A stretch of DNA of 25,870 bases from a virus. Position numbers and translations under genes: made by a program. Location of the stretch: positions 5,087 to 30,956 of the IMG/VR virus record IMGVR_UViG_3300037847_005481; one strand, given 5' to 3'. Positions 506-7,376 of this stretch are shown in pieces. Under the pieces are notes generated by a model that was not told the DNA's origin, searched no databases, and saw nothing but the letters and a program-made list of their open reading frames with translations. The first letter of the stretch is position 1. Each line of letters starts with the position of its first letter.

Positions 506-2692
506 ATGGCAGAAACAATTATCTCTCCAGGTGTATTCACAAGAGAAAATGATATTTCATTCATTCAACCAGCACCTGTAGTAGCAGGAGCAGCAATTAT
601 TGGACCAGCTGCTAAAGGTCCAGTAGAAGTACCTACATTAGTTACTTCGTATGGTGATTATCTAAGAAGATTTGGAAGCACGTTTGCTTCAGGATCTACC
701 TCTTATGAATTCTTAACTTCGATAGCAGTAAAAAATTATTTTTCACAAGGTGGAAATTCAGTATTAGTATCAAGAGTAGTAAACGGTACGTTTAGCGCAG
801 CTACTAATACAAATATAACAAACACACAAACCAGTACTGGTAATGAGTTTGCATCAGGATCACATGATTTTAACATTGGTTCAGGTGCAGCAGTAGATAA
901 TCAAGAATTTAGATTATCTAATGTTGGCTCAGGCAATGATACATTCAGATTCATAGCATCAGCGGACCCAGTTCCTGCAGATGATGTAGACGGTAAAGTA
1001 TTTTTCTTTTCTACAGGTTCTAATGAGGCTGGTTCAGTTTCAAATTTAGTAGATGCAATTAATAACGCTTCAGGTCTATCTAGTTTTGTATCTGCTAGTG
1101 TTAGTGGATCTACAAGTTTAGTAATCTCAGGTTCATCTGCCGGTACAGACTTTAACGGTATAGTATTTGCTTCAGGTTCTAGATTACCATCTGGTGCTAA
1201 CTTTGATTCTGATAATGTTACTATCTTTACTTTAGCTGGTGGTACAAATACAGTAACAGCTACTACTAATCCTTTTGTATTAGAAACATTAGGTAGAGGA
1301 GAAATTTACAATAACTCTACTGCAGCTAGTGATGGAGGAGCTCAAAACAGTGATGGTTCATTAGTATCAGGTTCTGCAGATAACTTAAGATGGGAAATAT
1401 CAAATGTCAATTCAGGATTAGGAACATTTACTTTATCAATCAGACAAGGAGATGATAATTTAAAAAATAAAACTATTTTAGAGACATTTAATAATGTATC
1501 TTTAGATCCTAATTCTCCTAACTACTTAGAAAAAGTAGTAGGTAATCAAGTAAAAAATATTACAACTGATTCAGACGGTTCCAAATATATAGCAGTAACT
1601 GGTTCTTATGTTAATAGATCTAATCTAGTAAGAGTATCAGCAGTTAACACACCAACTTTAAATTATTTAGGTAATGATGGTTTAACTGTAGAAGTAGATG
1701 CTCAAAATATTTCTTATTCAGCTTCTTTACCAGCAGTTGGCTCAGGTTCATTCTTTGGAGCATCAGGAACTTTATTTTCAGGTTCTCAAGCAGGAAATTA
1801 TTTTTCTGATATTAACGCTACTAATACACAAGGTTTACAACCAGGAGATTATACAGATATTATCTCAGTATTAGAAAATCAAGAAGAATATGTATTTAAT
1901 ATTATTTCAGCACCAGGTTTAGTATTTGAACTTAGTGGTCATGCTACACCTGTAAATAGTATAATTTCTTTAGCTGAAACTAGAGGTGATTGTATTGCAG
2001 TAATTGATTTAGTAGATTACGGTTCAACTGTATCTAACGCTACTGCTCAATCTTCTATCATTAATAGTTCTTACGCTGCGTCTTACTGGCCTTGGTTACA
2101 AACACAGTCAGAAACTGGTAGAAACGAATTTGTACCAGCTTCTACAGTAATACCAGGAGTATATGCATTTACAGATAATAGTGCTGCACCTTGGTTTGCA
2201 CCAGCAGGATTAGTAAGAGGAGGAATTACTGGAGTTATTCAAGCTGAAAGAAGATTAACTAGAACTCAAAGAGATACTTTATATACTAATAAAGTAAATC
2301 CTATAGCTTCATTCCCAGGTCAAGGTATTTCAGTATTTGGTCAGAAAACTTTACAAACTAAAGCTTCTGCACTTGACAGAGTAAATGTAAGAAGATTATT
2401 AATCAATCTTAAGAAATTTATTGGAGATCAAGCTAGAAACCTAGTATTCGAACAAAATACTATAACTACTCGTAACAGATTCTTAGCAGTGGTAAATCCA
2501 TTCTTAGAGTCAGTAGTACAAAGACAAGGATTATTTGCTTTCAGAGTAGTGATGGACGACACTAACAATACAGCCGACGTTGTAGATAGAAATCAATTAG
2601 TAGGTCAAATATTCATTCAACCAGCTAAGACTGCTGAATTTATAGTACTAGACTTTACAATTGAACCTACAGGAGCAACATTTGCTGGATAA
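506..2692 (+). CDS. 18: contractile tail sheath protein (T4 gp18-like)
   Basis: A 728-residue protein that polymerises around the tail tube and contracts at infection. The N-terminus (MAETIISPGVFTREND, then a VAGAAIIGPAAKGP segment) is the classical sheath start. The last 150 residues carry the other conserved sheath part: a RRLLINLKKFIGDQAR segment, then an NxF-type 'NRFLAVVNPFLESVV' region, and a C-terminal strand near 'FIVLDFTIEP' of the kind that forms the inter-subunit handshake. Residues about 100-480 are Ser/Gly/Thr/Asn-rich, with many SGS triplets, and form the surface insertion domain that varies most in sheaths. It is somewhat longer than T4 gp18 (659 aa). The tube gene follows directly, the usual sheath-tube order. 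The ATG has an A/T-rich leader. Confidence 0.95.
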   Translation: MAETIISPGVFTRENDISFIQPAPVVAGAAIIGPAAKGPVEVPTLVTSYGDYLRRFGSTFASGSTSYEFLTSIAVKNYFSQGGNSVLVSRVVNGTFSAATNTNITNTQTSTGNEFASGSHDFNIGSGAAVDNQEFRLSNVGSGNDTFRFIASADPVPADDVDGKVFFFSTGSNEAGSVSNLVDAINNASGLSSFVSASVSGSTSLVISGSSAGTDFNGIVFASGSRLPSGANFDSDNVTIFTLAGGTNTVTATTNPFVLETLGRGEIYNNSTAASDGGAQNSDGSLVSGSADNLRWEISNVNSGLGTFTLSIRQGDDNLKNKTILETFNNVSLDPNSPNYLEKVVGNQVKNITTDSDGSKYIAVTGSYVNRSNLVRVSAVNTPTLNYLGNDGLTVEVDAQNISYSASLPAVGSGSFFGASGTLFSGSQAGNYFSDINATNTQGLQPGDYTDIISVLENQEEYVFNIISAPGLVFELSGHATPVNSIISLAETRGDCIAVIDLVDYGSTVSNATAQSSIINSSYAASYWPWLQTQSETGRNEFVPASTVIPGVYAFTDNSAAPWFAPAGLVRGGITGVIQAERRLTRTQRDTLYTNKVNPIASFPGQGISVFGQKTLQTKASALDRVNVRRLLINLKKFIGDQARNLVFEQNTITTRNRFLAVVNPFLESVVQRQGLFAFRVVMDDTNNTADVVDRNQLVGQIFIQPAKTAEFIVLDFTIEPTGATFAG

Positions 2693-2729: not shown

Positions 2730-3215
2730 ATGGCAGTATTAGATCCAAACGAAATTATGTTTAGAGCCTTCGAACCGAAGGTACAGAATAGATTTATTAT
2801 GTATATGGATAACATTCCATCATTCATGGTAAAGACAGTAACAGCTCCAGGATTCGAAGATGGAGAAGTAGTATTAGATCATATCAATTCTTATCGTAAG
2901 ATACGTGGTAAAAGAGTATGGAACGATATGGATATGACTCTTTACGACCCGATTACTCCTTCCGGAGCACAAGCAGTAATGGAATGGGCTCGTCTTTCTT
3001 ACGAATCAGTAACTGGACGTGCAGGTTATTCTGATTTCTACAAAAAAGATTTAACACTTAACGTACTAGGACCAGTAGGTGATGTAGTATCTGAGTGGAT
3101 AATCAAAGGAGCATTTATTAAAACAATGTCTCAAGGAGACTTTGATTGGTCTGCTCCTGATACTGTAGAATTATCTATGACTATAGCAATGGATTACTGT
3201 GTACTAAACTACTAA
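2730..3215 (+). CDS. 19: tail tube protein (T4 gp19-like)
   Basis: A 161-residue protein, almost the same length as T4 gp19 (163 aa), that stacks as hexameric rings to form the inner tail tube. Features typical of the family are the N-terminal 'RFIMYMDNIPSFMVKTV' strand pair, the central 'SYRKIRGKRVWNDMDMTLYDP' segment, and the C-terminal 'WSAPDTVELSMTIAMDY' strand. The product is compact, with no signal or membrane segment. It uses CGT and TCT codons more than its neighbours, as might be expected for an abundant virion protein. It lies directly after the sheath and is followed by a strong hairpin terminator, so sheath and tube form a closed late unit. Confidence 0.93.
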   Translation: MAVLDPNEIMFRAFEPKVQNRFIMYMDNIPSFMVKTVTAPGFEDGEVVLDHINSYRKIRGKRVWNDMDMTLYDPITPSGAQAVMEWARLSYESVTGRAGYSDFYKKDLTLNVLGPVGDVVSEWIIKGAFIKTMSQGDFDWSAPDTVELSMTIAMDYCVLNY

Positions 3216-3322: not shown

Positions 3323-4066
3323 ATGGAACAAAAACAAAAATTTCCCACAGAAATAGTAGATTTACCTTCAGAAGGTAAACTTTACCCGAAAGATTCTCCA
3401 CTTGCTAATGGTACTATTGAAATGAAGTACATGACAGCTAAGGAAGAAGATATCTTAACTAACCAAAATTATATAGAAAAAGGTATAGTTATTGATAAAT
3501 TAATAAAAGCGTTAATAGTAGATAAAACTATTGATTATAACGAAATACTTTTAGGTGATAAAAATGCTTTACTTGTAGCTGCTAGAATATTAGGTTATGG
3601 TAAAGATTATGAATTTACTTACGGAAACGAAAAACAAAACGTAGATTTATCATTACTTAATAATAGACCTTTGAATAAGGAAGTATCGAAAGCTACATCT
3701 AATTCTTTTAACTTTACATTACCTACTACAAAAAGAGTAATTACTTTTAAAATATTAACTCACGGAGATGAAGTTAAAATAGATCAAGAAATTAGAGGTC
3801 TGAAAAAAATTAATAAAGAATCTTCTGCTGAAATGTCTACTCGACTTAAATATATTATTACAGCTGTAGACGGAGATGAAGATAAGAAAAATGTTAGAGC
3901 CTTTGTGGATAACGAATTTCTAGCTAGAGATTCAAGAGCTTTTAGAAACTACCTTAGAGACTTTCAACCTGATGTAGATATGAGATTTTATCCCGAAACA
4001 GGCCCGGAAGGAGGGGTAGATATCCCTATAGGGGTTAACTTTCTTTGGCCTGACGCCGCAATATAG
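3323..4066 (+). CDS. 26: gp26-like tail/baseplate assembly chaperone, short (zero-frame) form
   Basis: A 247-residue protein resembling the T4 gp26 baseplate family. It begins with the typical short motif 'VDLPSEGKLYP', continues 'GTIEMKYMTAKEEDILTN', and is mixed alpha/beta with no membrane segment. It ends 'DIPIGVNFLWPDAAI', with a Phe-Leu-Trp-Pro-Asp run near the C-terminus. It sits directly upstream of the tape measure gene, where tail-assembly chaperones are encoded in lambda-like and many other tailed phages. From 4032 a second coding frame opens that has no start codon and continues to 4295. I therefore think this is the short product of a frameshifting chaperone gene, comparable in layout to lambda gpG. 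The family call is fairly firm; the chaperone role is inference. Confidence 0.8.
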   Translation: MEQKQKFPTEIVDLPSEGKLYPKDSPLANGTIEMKYMTAKEEDILTNQNYIEKGIVIDKLIKALIVDKTIDYNEILLGDKNALLVAARILGYGKDYEFTYGNEKQNVDLSLLNNRPLNKEVSKATSNSFNFTLPTTKRVITFKILTHGDEVKIDQEIRGLKKINKESSAEMSTRLKYIITAVDGDEDKKNVRAFVDNEFLARDSRAFRNYLRDFQPDVDMRFYPETGPEGGVDIPIGVNFLWPDAAI

Positions 4067-4295
4067 AATCAACATTTTTAGTCAGATACATGAAATAGTA
4101 TTTCATGGTAAAGGTGGATACGATTACGATACCGTATATAATATGCCTATATGGTTGAGAAACTTTACTTTTCAAAAACTACAAGAACATTACGAAAAAG
4201 AAAAAGCTGAATACGATAAGATAAATAAAAAAGCTAATTCAATGAAAGGTGGTACGATTAAAAAACCAACCTACAGTACTAGGGCTCGCAAATAA
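4032..4295 (+). CDS. C-terminal extension of tail-assembly chaperone, read by predicted +1 frameshift (gp51-like position)
   Basis: An 87-codon open frame, +1 relative to the upstream gene, opens after a TAG at 4029-4031 and ends at TAA 4293-4295. Its first in-frame ATG is at 4143, far inside the conserved-looking part, so normal initiation would lose most of it. The translation looks like real protein: 'LTPQYRINIFSQIHEIVF', then 'HGKGGYDYDTVYNMPIWLRN', then a charged helix with 'LQEHYEKEKAEYDKINKK'. Plausible P-site slips in the 32-base overlap are GGG_G (4031-4034), TTT_C (4040-4043) and CTT_T (4043-4046). Any of these gives a fused protein of 323 residues. In T4 the gene after 26 is 51, so this may be the gp51 counterpart, but I cannot confirm homology. 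A sequencing indel is the main alternative. Confidence 0.7.
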   Translation, partial: GLTFFGLTPQYRINIFSQIHEIVFHGKGGYDYDTVYNMPIWLRNFTFQKLQEHYEKEKAEYDKINKKANSMKGGTIKKPTYSTRARK

Positions 4296-4331: not shown

Positions 4332-7300
4332 ATGGCAAGAGACGTTAATGTAGACATGCAACAACTGTTAAGACAGTTAAAGGATTTAGGTGCTAGTACT
4401 AGAGAAATAAACGCAGTAGAAAGAGCGTTTAAAGGAACTAGGAAAGGCACTGAAGAATTCGCTGCAGCTGTAGATTTAGCTGAAATGAAAATTCAAGCTC
4501 TTAAAGGGGCTGCTGAATCAGTTAATACAACTTTTCAAGATTTAAATAAAATCATTAAAGAAAATAATGAAGCATTAGACGGTAATTTTAACGTTATTTC
4601 TCAGACTGCTAAACTACAGAGAAGAATAGTATCTATTAGTGATGACTTACTTCTCGATGCTGAAGGTATTACAGATCTAAATGCAAGACAGCTAGAGTCT
4701 AAACTTGAACAACTAAAAGCTGATCGAAGATTATTATCTTTAGCTACAGCAAAAGCACAAGAAGATCTACAATCATTTAATGATAGAATAGCTAAAGGTG
4801 AAATATTAACCGATACTGAAGAAGCAAGAAGAAAGAAGTTAGAAGAAATTTCTAAATTTAATGCTTTAGAAGATGAAGGTCTTAAAGGTTTAATTCAAAA
4901 AACAAAACAACGATTAGATTTAGAAACAGCCATTAATAAAAATATGGGTGTTGCTGGTGCGTTAGTAGGAGGTACTGGTGCTTTAATGGAAAGACTAGGT
5001 ATGAGATCTGGTATTTTCCATCAAGCCATGAAAGATGCAAATGAAGAAATGCGTCTAATGGCTAAACAGTTAGGTGAGAATGTTACCTTCATGAATAAAT
5101 TGCAGATAGCTGCTAAAGGTTTTTCAGTACTAGCTGACGGTTTTGGACCTGCATTAAGAGATCCAACTGTAATAGCAGGTAAATTATTTGATTCATTCTT
5201 AGAAGTCAATAAAGCTCAAACTGACTTTATTCGTAACACTGGACAAGCTGCTAGAACTTTAGGAGGAGTTAATACTGAAGTAGCTACTATGTCTGATATG
5301 CTAAAATCAGCTAGTGAGTTAAGCAAAGAAACTGGTCTTAACGCAGCTACAGTCTTTACTTCTGAACAAATAGGTAATATAGCAGATGCAACTGCTTTAC
5401 TTGGACTTTCTGCTGAACATGCAACTGGTCTAGCTATGATGACTAAGCTATCAGGAGAGACACAAAAGCAAATAGAAGAAAATATATCAGCAAACGTTAG
5501 TGCTGGTATAAATCAGCTTAGTGTATTAGAAGACGTAGCCGCATCTAGTGACGACATAAAAGCATCTTTCGGTGGTAGCTCAATAGAACTTGCTAAAGCT
5601 TCAAATGCTGCTAAGAAATTAGGTATGGATTTAAGTAAAATTAATGATATAGCTGATGGTTTATTAGATTTTGAAGACTCTATATCTAAAGAATTAGAAG
5701 CCCAACTACTTACCGGTAAAAATATTAACTTAAGTAAAGCAAGAGAATTAGCTTTAAATAATGATTTAGCAGGAGTAGCTGACGAATTAGCTAAAAATGG
5801 TGCATCAGCAGCAGAGTTTGCTAATATGAATAGATTACAGCAACAAGGTTTAGCTGAAGCTTTAGGTATGTCAAGAGCAGAGTTAGCTAAAACAGTTCTT
5901 ACTGAAGAAGCTAGAGCTAATATGACAGAAGAGCAGATAGCGGCAGCAAGAGGAGTTACTTTAGAGCAATCAAGACAAATGGATATTCAAGAAAGAATAG
6001 CTAAATCAGTCAACAGATTAGCTGAAGCTTTTGCTCCTATTTTAGAAGCAGTTGTTCCAATAGTAGAAGCCGTATTAGGTTTTATTAGACCTATAGCAGC
6101 AGGAATAGGTTATCTATTAAAATTTAAAGCAGTATCGATAGCTTTAACTACAACTTTTTCAGTTTTAGCCGGGTATATGGCAGTAAAAAGGATAGCAGAA
6201 TTCGTAGGAGTAGGGGTTAAAGGTTTCATGAATATGAGAAAGTCTTTACAAGGGGTGAATTTTAGTATGAAATCTTTTGTAAGTGGTCTCAAATCAGCAG
6301 GAGCTGGAATTAAAAACGCATTTTTAAAAGGTTTAGGAGGCAATAAAGTAAAAGCAGTATTCGATGAAACAGCAAAAAGATTCAGAGATACAGCTACAGG
6401 AAGGTTTATCTCTGCAGATAAAGCTAAAGAATTAGGAGCTAAAATGCCTAAATCTAAAGAAATAGCATCTACTGTAAAAGGAGCAAAAGCTACCAAAGCA
6501 GTTCCGCCAGGTAAAAATATTAAAACTTTCTTACAAAATTTTGCTGCAGGTTTAAGATCTATGGCAGGAATGAAAGTTCTTCAAGGGGCTCTTAATCTTA
6601 TCCCTGCAAGTTTAGGTTTAGTAGCAATGATACCAGGTGTAGTTGGAGCTAAACTTATGGAAGTTATCAGTGGGCCAAAATTATTGATATCTTTTCAATC
6701 ATTAGCAGGTGGATTAATAGCTATGGGAAATAGTAAAGTATTATTAGGCACAGCAGCATTAGCAGCAGCTGCCGCCGCCTTCATTTTAATGATTCCAGCA
6801 TCAGCAGGTATGGCTTTATTAGGAGTTACAGGACCTATGGCATCAGCAGGTATTATGGCTTTAATACCAGCATTAGAAGCTTTAGGTATGGCTATGGCGA
6901 CTGGTTACGGTGCATTAGGATTAGCTGCACTTCTTGCTAGTATGGTAGTAATAGGTGCTCAAGCAATGATGTTTGGAGCTGCATTTATGATGATAGGTGC
7001 AGGAATTAAATTCGCAGCTGATGGATTTAGTGTAATACTTTCTCAACTAGGTGGTTTAGTAGAGATGTTACCTTCATTGTATATGATAGGACCTGCTTTA
7101 ATGGGAATTGCTGCAGGATTATCTGCAATCGCTATTTCAGGAATAGCAGCATTACCTGCATTAGCAGGTTTAGGAACCTTAGCAGTTATGGCTACTCCTT
7201 TAATAGCTCTTGGTTCTTTATTTACCGGAGGAGACGATGAAAGTGACGGATTTGCTAAAATTGAAGCTAAATTAGATACTCTTATAGGAGTAGTTTCTGC

Positions 7301-7376
7301 TGGAGGAGATGTATACTTAGATTCAGATAAAGTCGGTAGAACTCAAGCTAAATCGTTCTCTTTAATAACATCTTAA
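4332..7376 (+). CDS. tail tape measure protein (T4 gp29 role)
   Basis: A 1014-residue protein with tape-measure composition. Residues about 1-215 are charged helices with coiled-coil character (for example 'LESKLEQLKADRRLLSLATA'). The middle is helical and Ala/Leu/Glu-rich. From about residue 560 hydrophobic stretches appear ('AFAPILEAVVPIVEAVLGFI'), and residues about 800-965 are a nearly continuous Ala/Gly/Met/Leu-rich membrane-like region, as expected for the part that enters the cell envelope during DNA ejection. A 'FRDTATGRFISADKA' segment near residue 690 resembles short motifs seen in other phage tape measures. At about 0.15 nm per helical residue it predicts a tail near 150 nm, longer than T4 (gp29 590 aa). 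It follows the chaperone gene directly. The gene product is recognised by composition and context, not by close sequence identity. Confidence 0.88.
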   Translation: MARDVNVDMQQLLRQLKDLGASTREINAVERAFKGTRKGTEEFAAAVDLAEMKIQALKGAAESVNTTFQDLNKIIKENNEALDGNFNVISQTAKLQRRIVSISDDLLLDAEGITDLNARQLESKLEQLKADRRLLSLATAKAQEDLQSFNDRIAKGEILTDTEEARRKKLEEISKFNALEDEGLKGLIQKTKQRLDLETAINKNMGVAGALVGGTGALMERLGMRSGIFHQAMKDANEEMRLMAKQLGENVTFMNKLQIAAKGFSVLADGFGPALRDPTVIAGKLFDSFLEVNKAQTDFIRNTGQAARTLGGVNTEVATMSDMLKSASELSKETGLNAATVFTSEQIGNIADATALLGLSAEHATGLAMMTKLSGETQKQIEENISANVSAGINQLSVLEDVAASSDDIKASFGGSSIELAKASNAAKKLGMDLSKINDIADGLLDFEDSISKELEAQLLTGKNINLSKARELALNNDLAGVADELAKNGASAAEFANMNRLQQQGLAEALGMSRAELAKTVLTEEARANMTEEQIAAARGVTLEQSRQMDIQERIAKSVNRLAEAFAPILEAVVPIVEAVLGFIRPIAAGIGYLLKFKAVSIALTTTFSVLAGYMAVKRIAEFVGVGVKGFMNMRKSLQGVNFSMKSFVSGLKSAGAGIKNAFLKGLGGNKVKAVFDETAKRFRDTATGRFISADKAKELGAKMPKSKEIASTVKGAKATKAVPPGKNIKTFLQNFAAGLRSMAGMKVLQGALNLIPASLGLVAMIPGVVGAKLMEVISGPKLLISFQSLAGGLIAMGNSKVLLGTAALAAAAAAFILMIPASAGMALLGVTGPMASAGIMALIPALEALGMAMATGYGALGLAALLASMVVIGAQAMMFGAAFMMIGAGIKFAADGFSVILSQLGGLVEMLPSLYMIGPALMGIAAGLSAIAISGIAALPALAGLGTLAVMATPLIALGSLFTGGDDESDGFAKIEAKLDTLIGVVSAGGDVYLDSDKVGRTQAKSFSLITS

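Follow-up and report, generated by a model that had tools for sequence, protein, structure and literature searches.

The tail assembly chaperone gene of a T4-like myovirus very probably contains a programmed +1 ribosomal frameshift at a UUU_Y site, which would allow a single gene of the G/GT kind to be read as both a short and a long protein. The DNA concerned, referred to here as the window, is the whole stretch of 25,870 nucleotides that was analysed, itself part of an IMG/VR virus record of 30,956 bases (~31 kb), and its relevant features are collected in Table 1. An earlier note on this DNA had proposed a programmed +1 frameshift in the chaperone gene that lies before the tape measure gene, a proposal that comparison with related loci bears out: the +1 relation holds in 251 of 252 of them, and both codon constraint and +1-frame identity jump at the slip codon. 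As far as sequence can establish, this is one conserved locus in which the +1 relation, a boundary at UUU, the lack of an obligatory start codon and constraint on two SD-like elements are all found together, and on that footing the observation is confirmed as real and functional, far beyond chance.

How would the two proteins arise? Most ribosomes would terminate at 4064-4066 to give a short form of 247 residues, while a minority would pause with peptidyl-tRNA-Phe on UUU (4040-4042). The tRNA-Phe would then re-pair one base forward on UUC (4041-4043) and translation would resume at UUU (4044-4046), generating a long form with a C-terminal domain that may recruit the tail tube. With the slip at UUU_Y the predicted long product has 240+83 = 323 residues and runs ...GVNF-FGLTPQYR... 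across the join; the predicted junction peptide of the window is FYPETGPEGGVDIPIGVNF[F/L]GLTPQYR and the C-terminal peptide of the short form is FYPETGPEGGVDIPIGVNFLWPDAAI. If the roles are those known from lambda, the short form would coat the tape measure, with tube subunits recruited by the long form. We infer this role in assembly, the ratio of the two forms and a slip of +1 rather than -2.

Table 1. Features of the window that bear on the frameshift, ordered by position.
Feature	Positions	Strand	Basis and remarks
Tail sheath gene	506-2692		Upstream of the chaperone gene
Tail tube gene	2730-3215	+	161 aa; phrog_4542 tail tube, E=1.3e-21
Putative short form, tail assembly chaperone (TAC-N; T4 gp26-like, gpG-like)	3323-4066	+	247 aa 0-frame ORF ending in TAG 4064-4066; phrog_150; gene position; Foldseek
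Far SD-like GGAGG, within AAGGAGG 4008-4014	4010-4014	+	25 nt to the slip codon in the window; beyond synonymous expectation
Near SD-like G run GGGG	4031-4034	+	5 nt ahead of the slip codon; GGG enriched at -9
Predicted slip codon UUU (tRNA-Phe, UUU to UUC)	4040-4042	+	TTT in 251/251 loci
Dual-coded stretch CTTTGGCCTGAC	4043-4054	+	0-frame L W P D; +1 frame F G L T; TGGCCTGAC near-invariant
Putative C-terminal domain, +1 frame (gpT-like / T4 gp51-tail-like)	4044-4295	+	83 residues and TAA; conserved in all relatives, without its own start; weak profile matches
0-frame stop TAG	4064-4066	+	24 nt past the slip codon
Tape measure gene	4332-7376	+	1014 aa ORF directly downstream; positional equivalent in immuto annotated 'tail tape measure protein'

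The relation between the two frames recurs throughout the relatives. Viral contigs were scanned twice, which yielded 158 loci carrying both halves, every one of them +1; the addition of pattern and profile scans brought the collection to 252 distinct loci, in 251 of which the first reading frame is continued, close to its 3' end, by a second one that lies at a +1 offset and has no start of its own. The sole locus without this offset, L349, has a 0-frame broken well ahead of the junction, probably by an upstream (assembly) indel. The same relation, which the earlier note had proposed to check in homologues, is also present in Flavobacterium phage immuto, Microcystis phage Mel-JY01 and the huge phage LR756508 (484 kb). 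An indel error in the window, which that note had named as fatal to its case, is ruled out because isolated phages and 251 distinct loci all repeat the +1 relation, and the probability of a sequencing or assembly indel, or of a pseudogene, is vanishingly small. In the complete 160 kb genome of immuto each half is found once only (tblastn), and a BLAST search of that genome found no second gene that could supply the long form. The annotations of immuto and Mel-JY01 call the halves as separate ORFs. For instance, KNV73_gp038 of immuto (L159 6854-6964), annotated as a 37-residue hypothetical protein, starts inside the C-terminal domain and is a mis-called fragment of the frameshifted domain.

Within the window a TAG at 4029-4031 is followed by an open +1 frame, which runs from 4032 as far as a TAA at 4293-4295. 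The overlap with the 0-frame noted earlier is present, although it amounts to 35 bases and not the approximately 32 first given. The first ATG, GTG or TTG of the +1 frame lies 37 codons in, within the conserved part, and 97/251 loci have no such codon at all in the interval from the upstream +1 stop to the domain, in agreement with the earlier view that the second half lacks a usable start.

Where, then, does the ribosome change frame? When the 251 0-frame genes were aligned codon by codon, synonymous constraint was found to jump at the slip codon. Conserved residues upstream vary freely in their synonymous codons up to Pro235 (CCA in 41%), five codons ahead of the slip, while the codon of Phe240 (4040-4042) never departs from TTT, as against 82-88% TTT in the other conserved Phe columns. 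Beyond it, Pro243 is encoded by CCT in 251/251, a codon used for at most 55% elsewhere in these genes, and Asp244 by GAC in 99%, where GAT dominates elsewhere. The identity of the +1 frame rises from 0.48 for the codon that starts at base -2 to 1.00 from base +1 onward, a change that falls on the same base as TTT. Stops in the +1 frame occur upstream of the slip in 32% of loci at -23, in 21% at -11 and in 9% at -5, with none after it, and 0/251 loci have a +1 stop between the slip site and the C-terminal domain. Thus, the +1 frame is unconserved and often interrupted by stops upstream and invariant downstream, and entry into it must therefore occur at or just after TTT.

The three slip sites suggested earlier, GGG_G (4031), TTT_C (4040) and CTT_T (4043), do lie at those positions, but only the one at 4040 is universal, in the form TTT_Y. 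GGG_G is excluded, with a +1 stop after GGG_G and right before TTT in 9% of loci, and an SD-like G run is the better description of this GGGG. CTT_T is not shared by all: among 245 TGGCC-type loci the codon after TTT is TTT in 160, CTT in 83 and CTA in 2, with CTA again in LR756508; the three loci with CTA at this codon are L045, L132 and L161, for which TTT_C alone remains as a site. TTT_Y at 4040 is the only re-pairing site common to all the +1 relatives examined, the distant relatives SP-15, LIS04, GXN1 and RM378 having TTT followed by T or C. The 0-frame stop is found 24 nt past the slip codon in 159/251 loci and 18 nt past it in 82/251, with a full range of 15-30 nt, so that the A site would not contain the stop when the slip occurs. 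Nor do the loci follow the -1 heptanucleotide pattern X_XXY_YYZ with an extension in the -1 frame, the offset being +1 in 251/252.

A +1 slip might instead take place one codon later in the manner of prfB, with tRNA-Leu or tRNA-Phe on CUU or UUU re-pairing on UUU and with UGG in the A site. This would be in keeping with the presence of CTT or TTT in 243/245 of the TGGCC-type loci and with the use of CUU_U as the prfB site (PMC12421855), but the constraint to CTT/TTT is already accounted for by the Phe of the +1 frame, and a slip at this point leaves the absence of TTC at the preceding TTT unexplained. Furthermore, the CTA of L045, L132 and L161 would break the re-pairing; since such loci are unable to use a YUU_U slip and UUU_Y works for all, UUU_Y is preferred, and a later slip of the prfB-like CUU_U kind is regarded as rather unlikely. 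The CTA loci also bear on a -2 shift from the second codon, which would reach the same frame as +1 with one extra residue in the product and is known in phage Mu (PMC5009743). Here the tRNA on YUU could re-pair on UUY, but that re-pairing fails where CTA is found, -2 shifts are rarer, and +1 at UUU_Y is enough for all loci, so that a -2 shift is considered quite improbable.

Could the C-terminal half simply be a separate gene with a non-standard or internal start of its own? The separate ORFs called by the annotators of immuto and Mel-JY01 would agree with this, as would a conserved ATG at +103 (171/251) and a conserved CTG at +10 (247/251). However, the ATG lies inside the domain and would cut it, while initiation at the CTG would leave the invariant TTT at 0 and the FF residues unexplained. 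Conservation of the protein sequence sets in at the slip codon itself, and the 97 loci without ATG, GTG or TTG ahead of the domain add to the case against an independent gene, which is very hard to credit. A frameshift at UUU_Y remains the favoured reading.

What kind of protein does the gene encode? The 0-frame protein of the window matches phrog_150 ('baseplate hub', E=4.9e-8), as do 7/7 family members and both gp26 and gp51 of T4, and PF12322 is matched by the distant members L161, L162 and L164 and not by the window protein itself. The predicted fold of the N half has a pLDDT of 89.6, and Foldseek matches it to T4-like baseplate hub and hub assembly proteins; a fold search of the PDB gave no significant match, the HK97 chaperone 2ob9 and the prophage-type YqbN 3klu ranking third and fourth at E about 2. 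With the halves folded apart, the prediction for the C domain is poor (pLDDT 67.4, a helical hairpin only). The +1 half matches phrog_32580 'tail assembly chaperone' weakly (6/30 members, best E=0.021) and, likewise weakly, phrog_634 'baseplate hub assembly catalyst' (4/30 members, best E=0.026). The likeness to T4 gp51 that the earlier note had proposed to look for, here to its C-terminus through phrog_634, is thus weak by profile, and hhalign of the family profiles against the single T4 gp26 and gp51 sequences gave nothing. A Pfam match of the +1 half to MRP-L51 was set aside as chance level, as were Pfam matches of the tape measure protein to unrelated families, and a profile search gave no confident family match for that protein in the window. 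The gene sits between the tail tube and tape measure genes, in the order expected of G/GT genes, and its identity as a tail assembly chaperone of the G/GT kind with a predicted long form of 323 residues is supported by these comparisons.

Tail chaperone frameshifts are among the most widespread recoding events and are usually -1. Such genes are known to shift by -1, -2 or +1, and the frameshift that links lambda gpG and gpGT is conserved in long-tailed phages (PMC5009743). The lambda shift is -1 and its sequence is unrelated, whereas in the present family the shift would be +1 at UUU_Y, and the 0-frame stop follows 18-24 nt later. The +1 direction is shared with HSTV-2, a haloarchaeal myovirus whose tail-chaperone shift is very likely +1 (PMC5009743), although this is an archaeal virus. 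It is also shared with prfB (RF2; PMC12421855, PMC8710568), which similarly combines a pyrimidine-rich slip with an upstream SD-like element. In prfB, however, the slip is on CUU with UGA in the A site and the SD 3 nt upstream, whereas in the window it would be on UUU with a sense codon in the A site and SD-like elements at 5 and about 26 nt. Neither hallmark of the prfB type, a CUU_U slip codon and an A-site stop, describes the family, where many loci have CTA or UUU and the stop is 15-30 nt away.

T4 itself has the two forms as two separate genes with no frameshift, in contrast to the one gene and +1 frameshift of the window. It shares the N-terminal family (phrog_150/PF12322), with gp51 as the longer paralogue that carries a C-terminal extension, and gp26 and gp51 can be aligned over about 160 residues (BLASTP E=2e-6). 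The two T4 genes (L165 7803-9229) are paralogues that are divergently placed. Their arrangement is consistent with a short-form gene plus a long-form gene. That gp26 and gp51 are tape-measure chaperones, as the earlier note had suggested, agrees with Vladimirov et al. 2022, who, as relayed in PMC12846349 and PMC10885494, describe both as tail assembly chaperones and propose that T4-like phages encode the short and the long form in two genes rather than by frameshifting; to that extent the suggestion is not new.

Other members of the family use the opposite direction. The extension is +1 in the window clade, Mel-JY01, LR756508, RM378, SP-15, LIS04 and GXN1, and -1 in KVP40, Bellamy, PA5oct, RaK2, 121Q, XacN1, RAS14, BF, Atu_ph07 and LR756511, nearly all of the latter at T_TTT_TTY. 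By annotation gp26/gp51 were not found in P-SSM4, and Bellamy and KVP40 were used for comparison; the KVP40 record likens a small ORF downstream to the C-terminus of T4 gp51. Chaperone pairs of the -1 type at T_TTT_TTY were seen in L445, L446, L447-L452 and L164 (Bellamy, KVP40 and jumbo phages). The -1 relatives have the same gene pair, Phe-Phe/oligo-U site and kind of C-terminal domain as the window and differ in direction. At this one site the direction of the shift has switched at least once; on the tree it needs two changes, with a single +1 clade not rejected (p=0.18) and with long deep branches.

Upstream of the slip codon are two SD-like elements. GGAGG lies at -31 to -27 in 107 loci and starts at -30 in 43 and at -28 in 27, and GGAGG or GGGGG is present at this far position in 202/251 loci, in comparison to 42.5 expected from synonymous resampling (maximum 59 in 200 trials) and to 0-2/251 loci in control windows. 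Its spacing in the relatives is 24-26 nt ahead of TTT. The earlier note had half-dismissed AAGGAGG for its distance, but the element is conserved beyond codon expectation at just this spacing; the motif is present as described, with 3 copies on the + strand of the 25.9 kb, though the shorter AGGAGG is found 17 times. Closer to the slip, GGG encodes the Gly at -9 in 125/187 loci (67%), compared to 188/3095 (6%) in the rest of these genes, and a G run is found 4-8 nt upstream of the slip codon in 114/251 loci as against 48 expected. The encoded peptide is rich in Glu and Gly in this region, and both elements might result from biased codon or amino-acid use (EEG, GG and IG motifs) rather than act as stimulators. 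Such an origin is doubtful in view of the excess over synonymous resampling, the retention of the far element in different codon phases and peptides with a GAG:GAA ratio of 120:12 at the site versus 1132:3929 overall, and the preference for GGG at -9. The two elements may stimulate the slip.

RNA structure gave no comparable signal: RNAalifold found no conserved pairs in any of the segments tested, with a mean z of about -0.1 to -0.6, and pairing in cis of GGAGG with the invariant CCTGACGCC was rejected as not locus-specific, random partners pairing as well or better. None of 20 start codons inspected in the window is preceded by an SD, the upstream regions being mostly A/T, as in Bacteroidota. 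The far element is too distant for the known geometry of prfB or dnaX, and to our knowledge there is no precedent for a 26-nt spacer between an SD-like element and a slip site. In Bacteroidia the anti-SD is occluded and prfB +1 frameshifting is still common, for which it has been proposed that pausing allows time for the anti-SD to be released (PMC8710568). The two-element arrangement would suit this idea. It is possible, and put forward here tentatively, that the family has a two-step SD-assisted +1 shift adapted to Bacteroidota ribosomes together with a -1/+1 flip at the same oligo-U site, whereby a passing ribosome would have its occluded anti-SD drawn from the 30S pocket by the far GGAGG, after which the near GGGG, which lies 5 nt from UUU, would re-pair and push tRNA-Phe +1.

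The clade is large and probably infects Bacteroidota, which are likely hosts because of the host of immuto and the occurrence of relatives in Winogradskyella and Flavobacteriaceae MAGs. Frameshifting in tail chaperone genes as such is already known, as is, from the papers that cite the proposal, the role of gp26/gp51 as chaperones. What is new is that a large clade would use +1 at UUU_Y, with two SD-like elements kept beyond codon expectation. One outcome is the correction of a systematic annotation gap, by which the long form had come to be called a 37-residue hypothetical protein in immuto. More broadly, an abundant marine clade appears to have its +1 site fixed over about 15 bases, where almost no change is tolerated, and the branches of the family with +1, -1 or two genes (T4) would form a natural series for the change of recoding direction. 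Finally, the likely hosts, Flavobacteria, ignore SDs at initiation and are reported to have a prfB frameshift that is puzzling in this light, and the locus would thereby make the use of the anti-SD in the elongation phase testable (PMC8710568).
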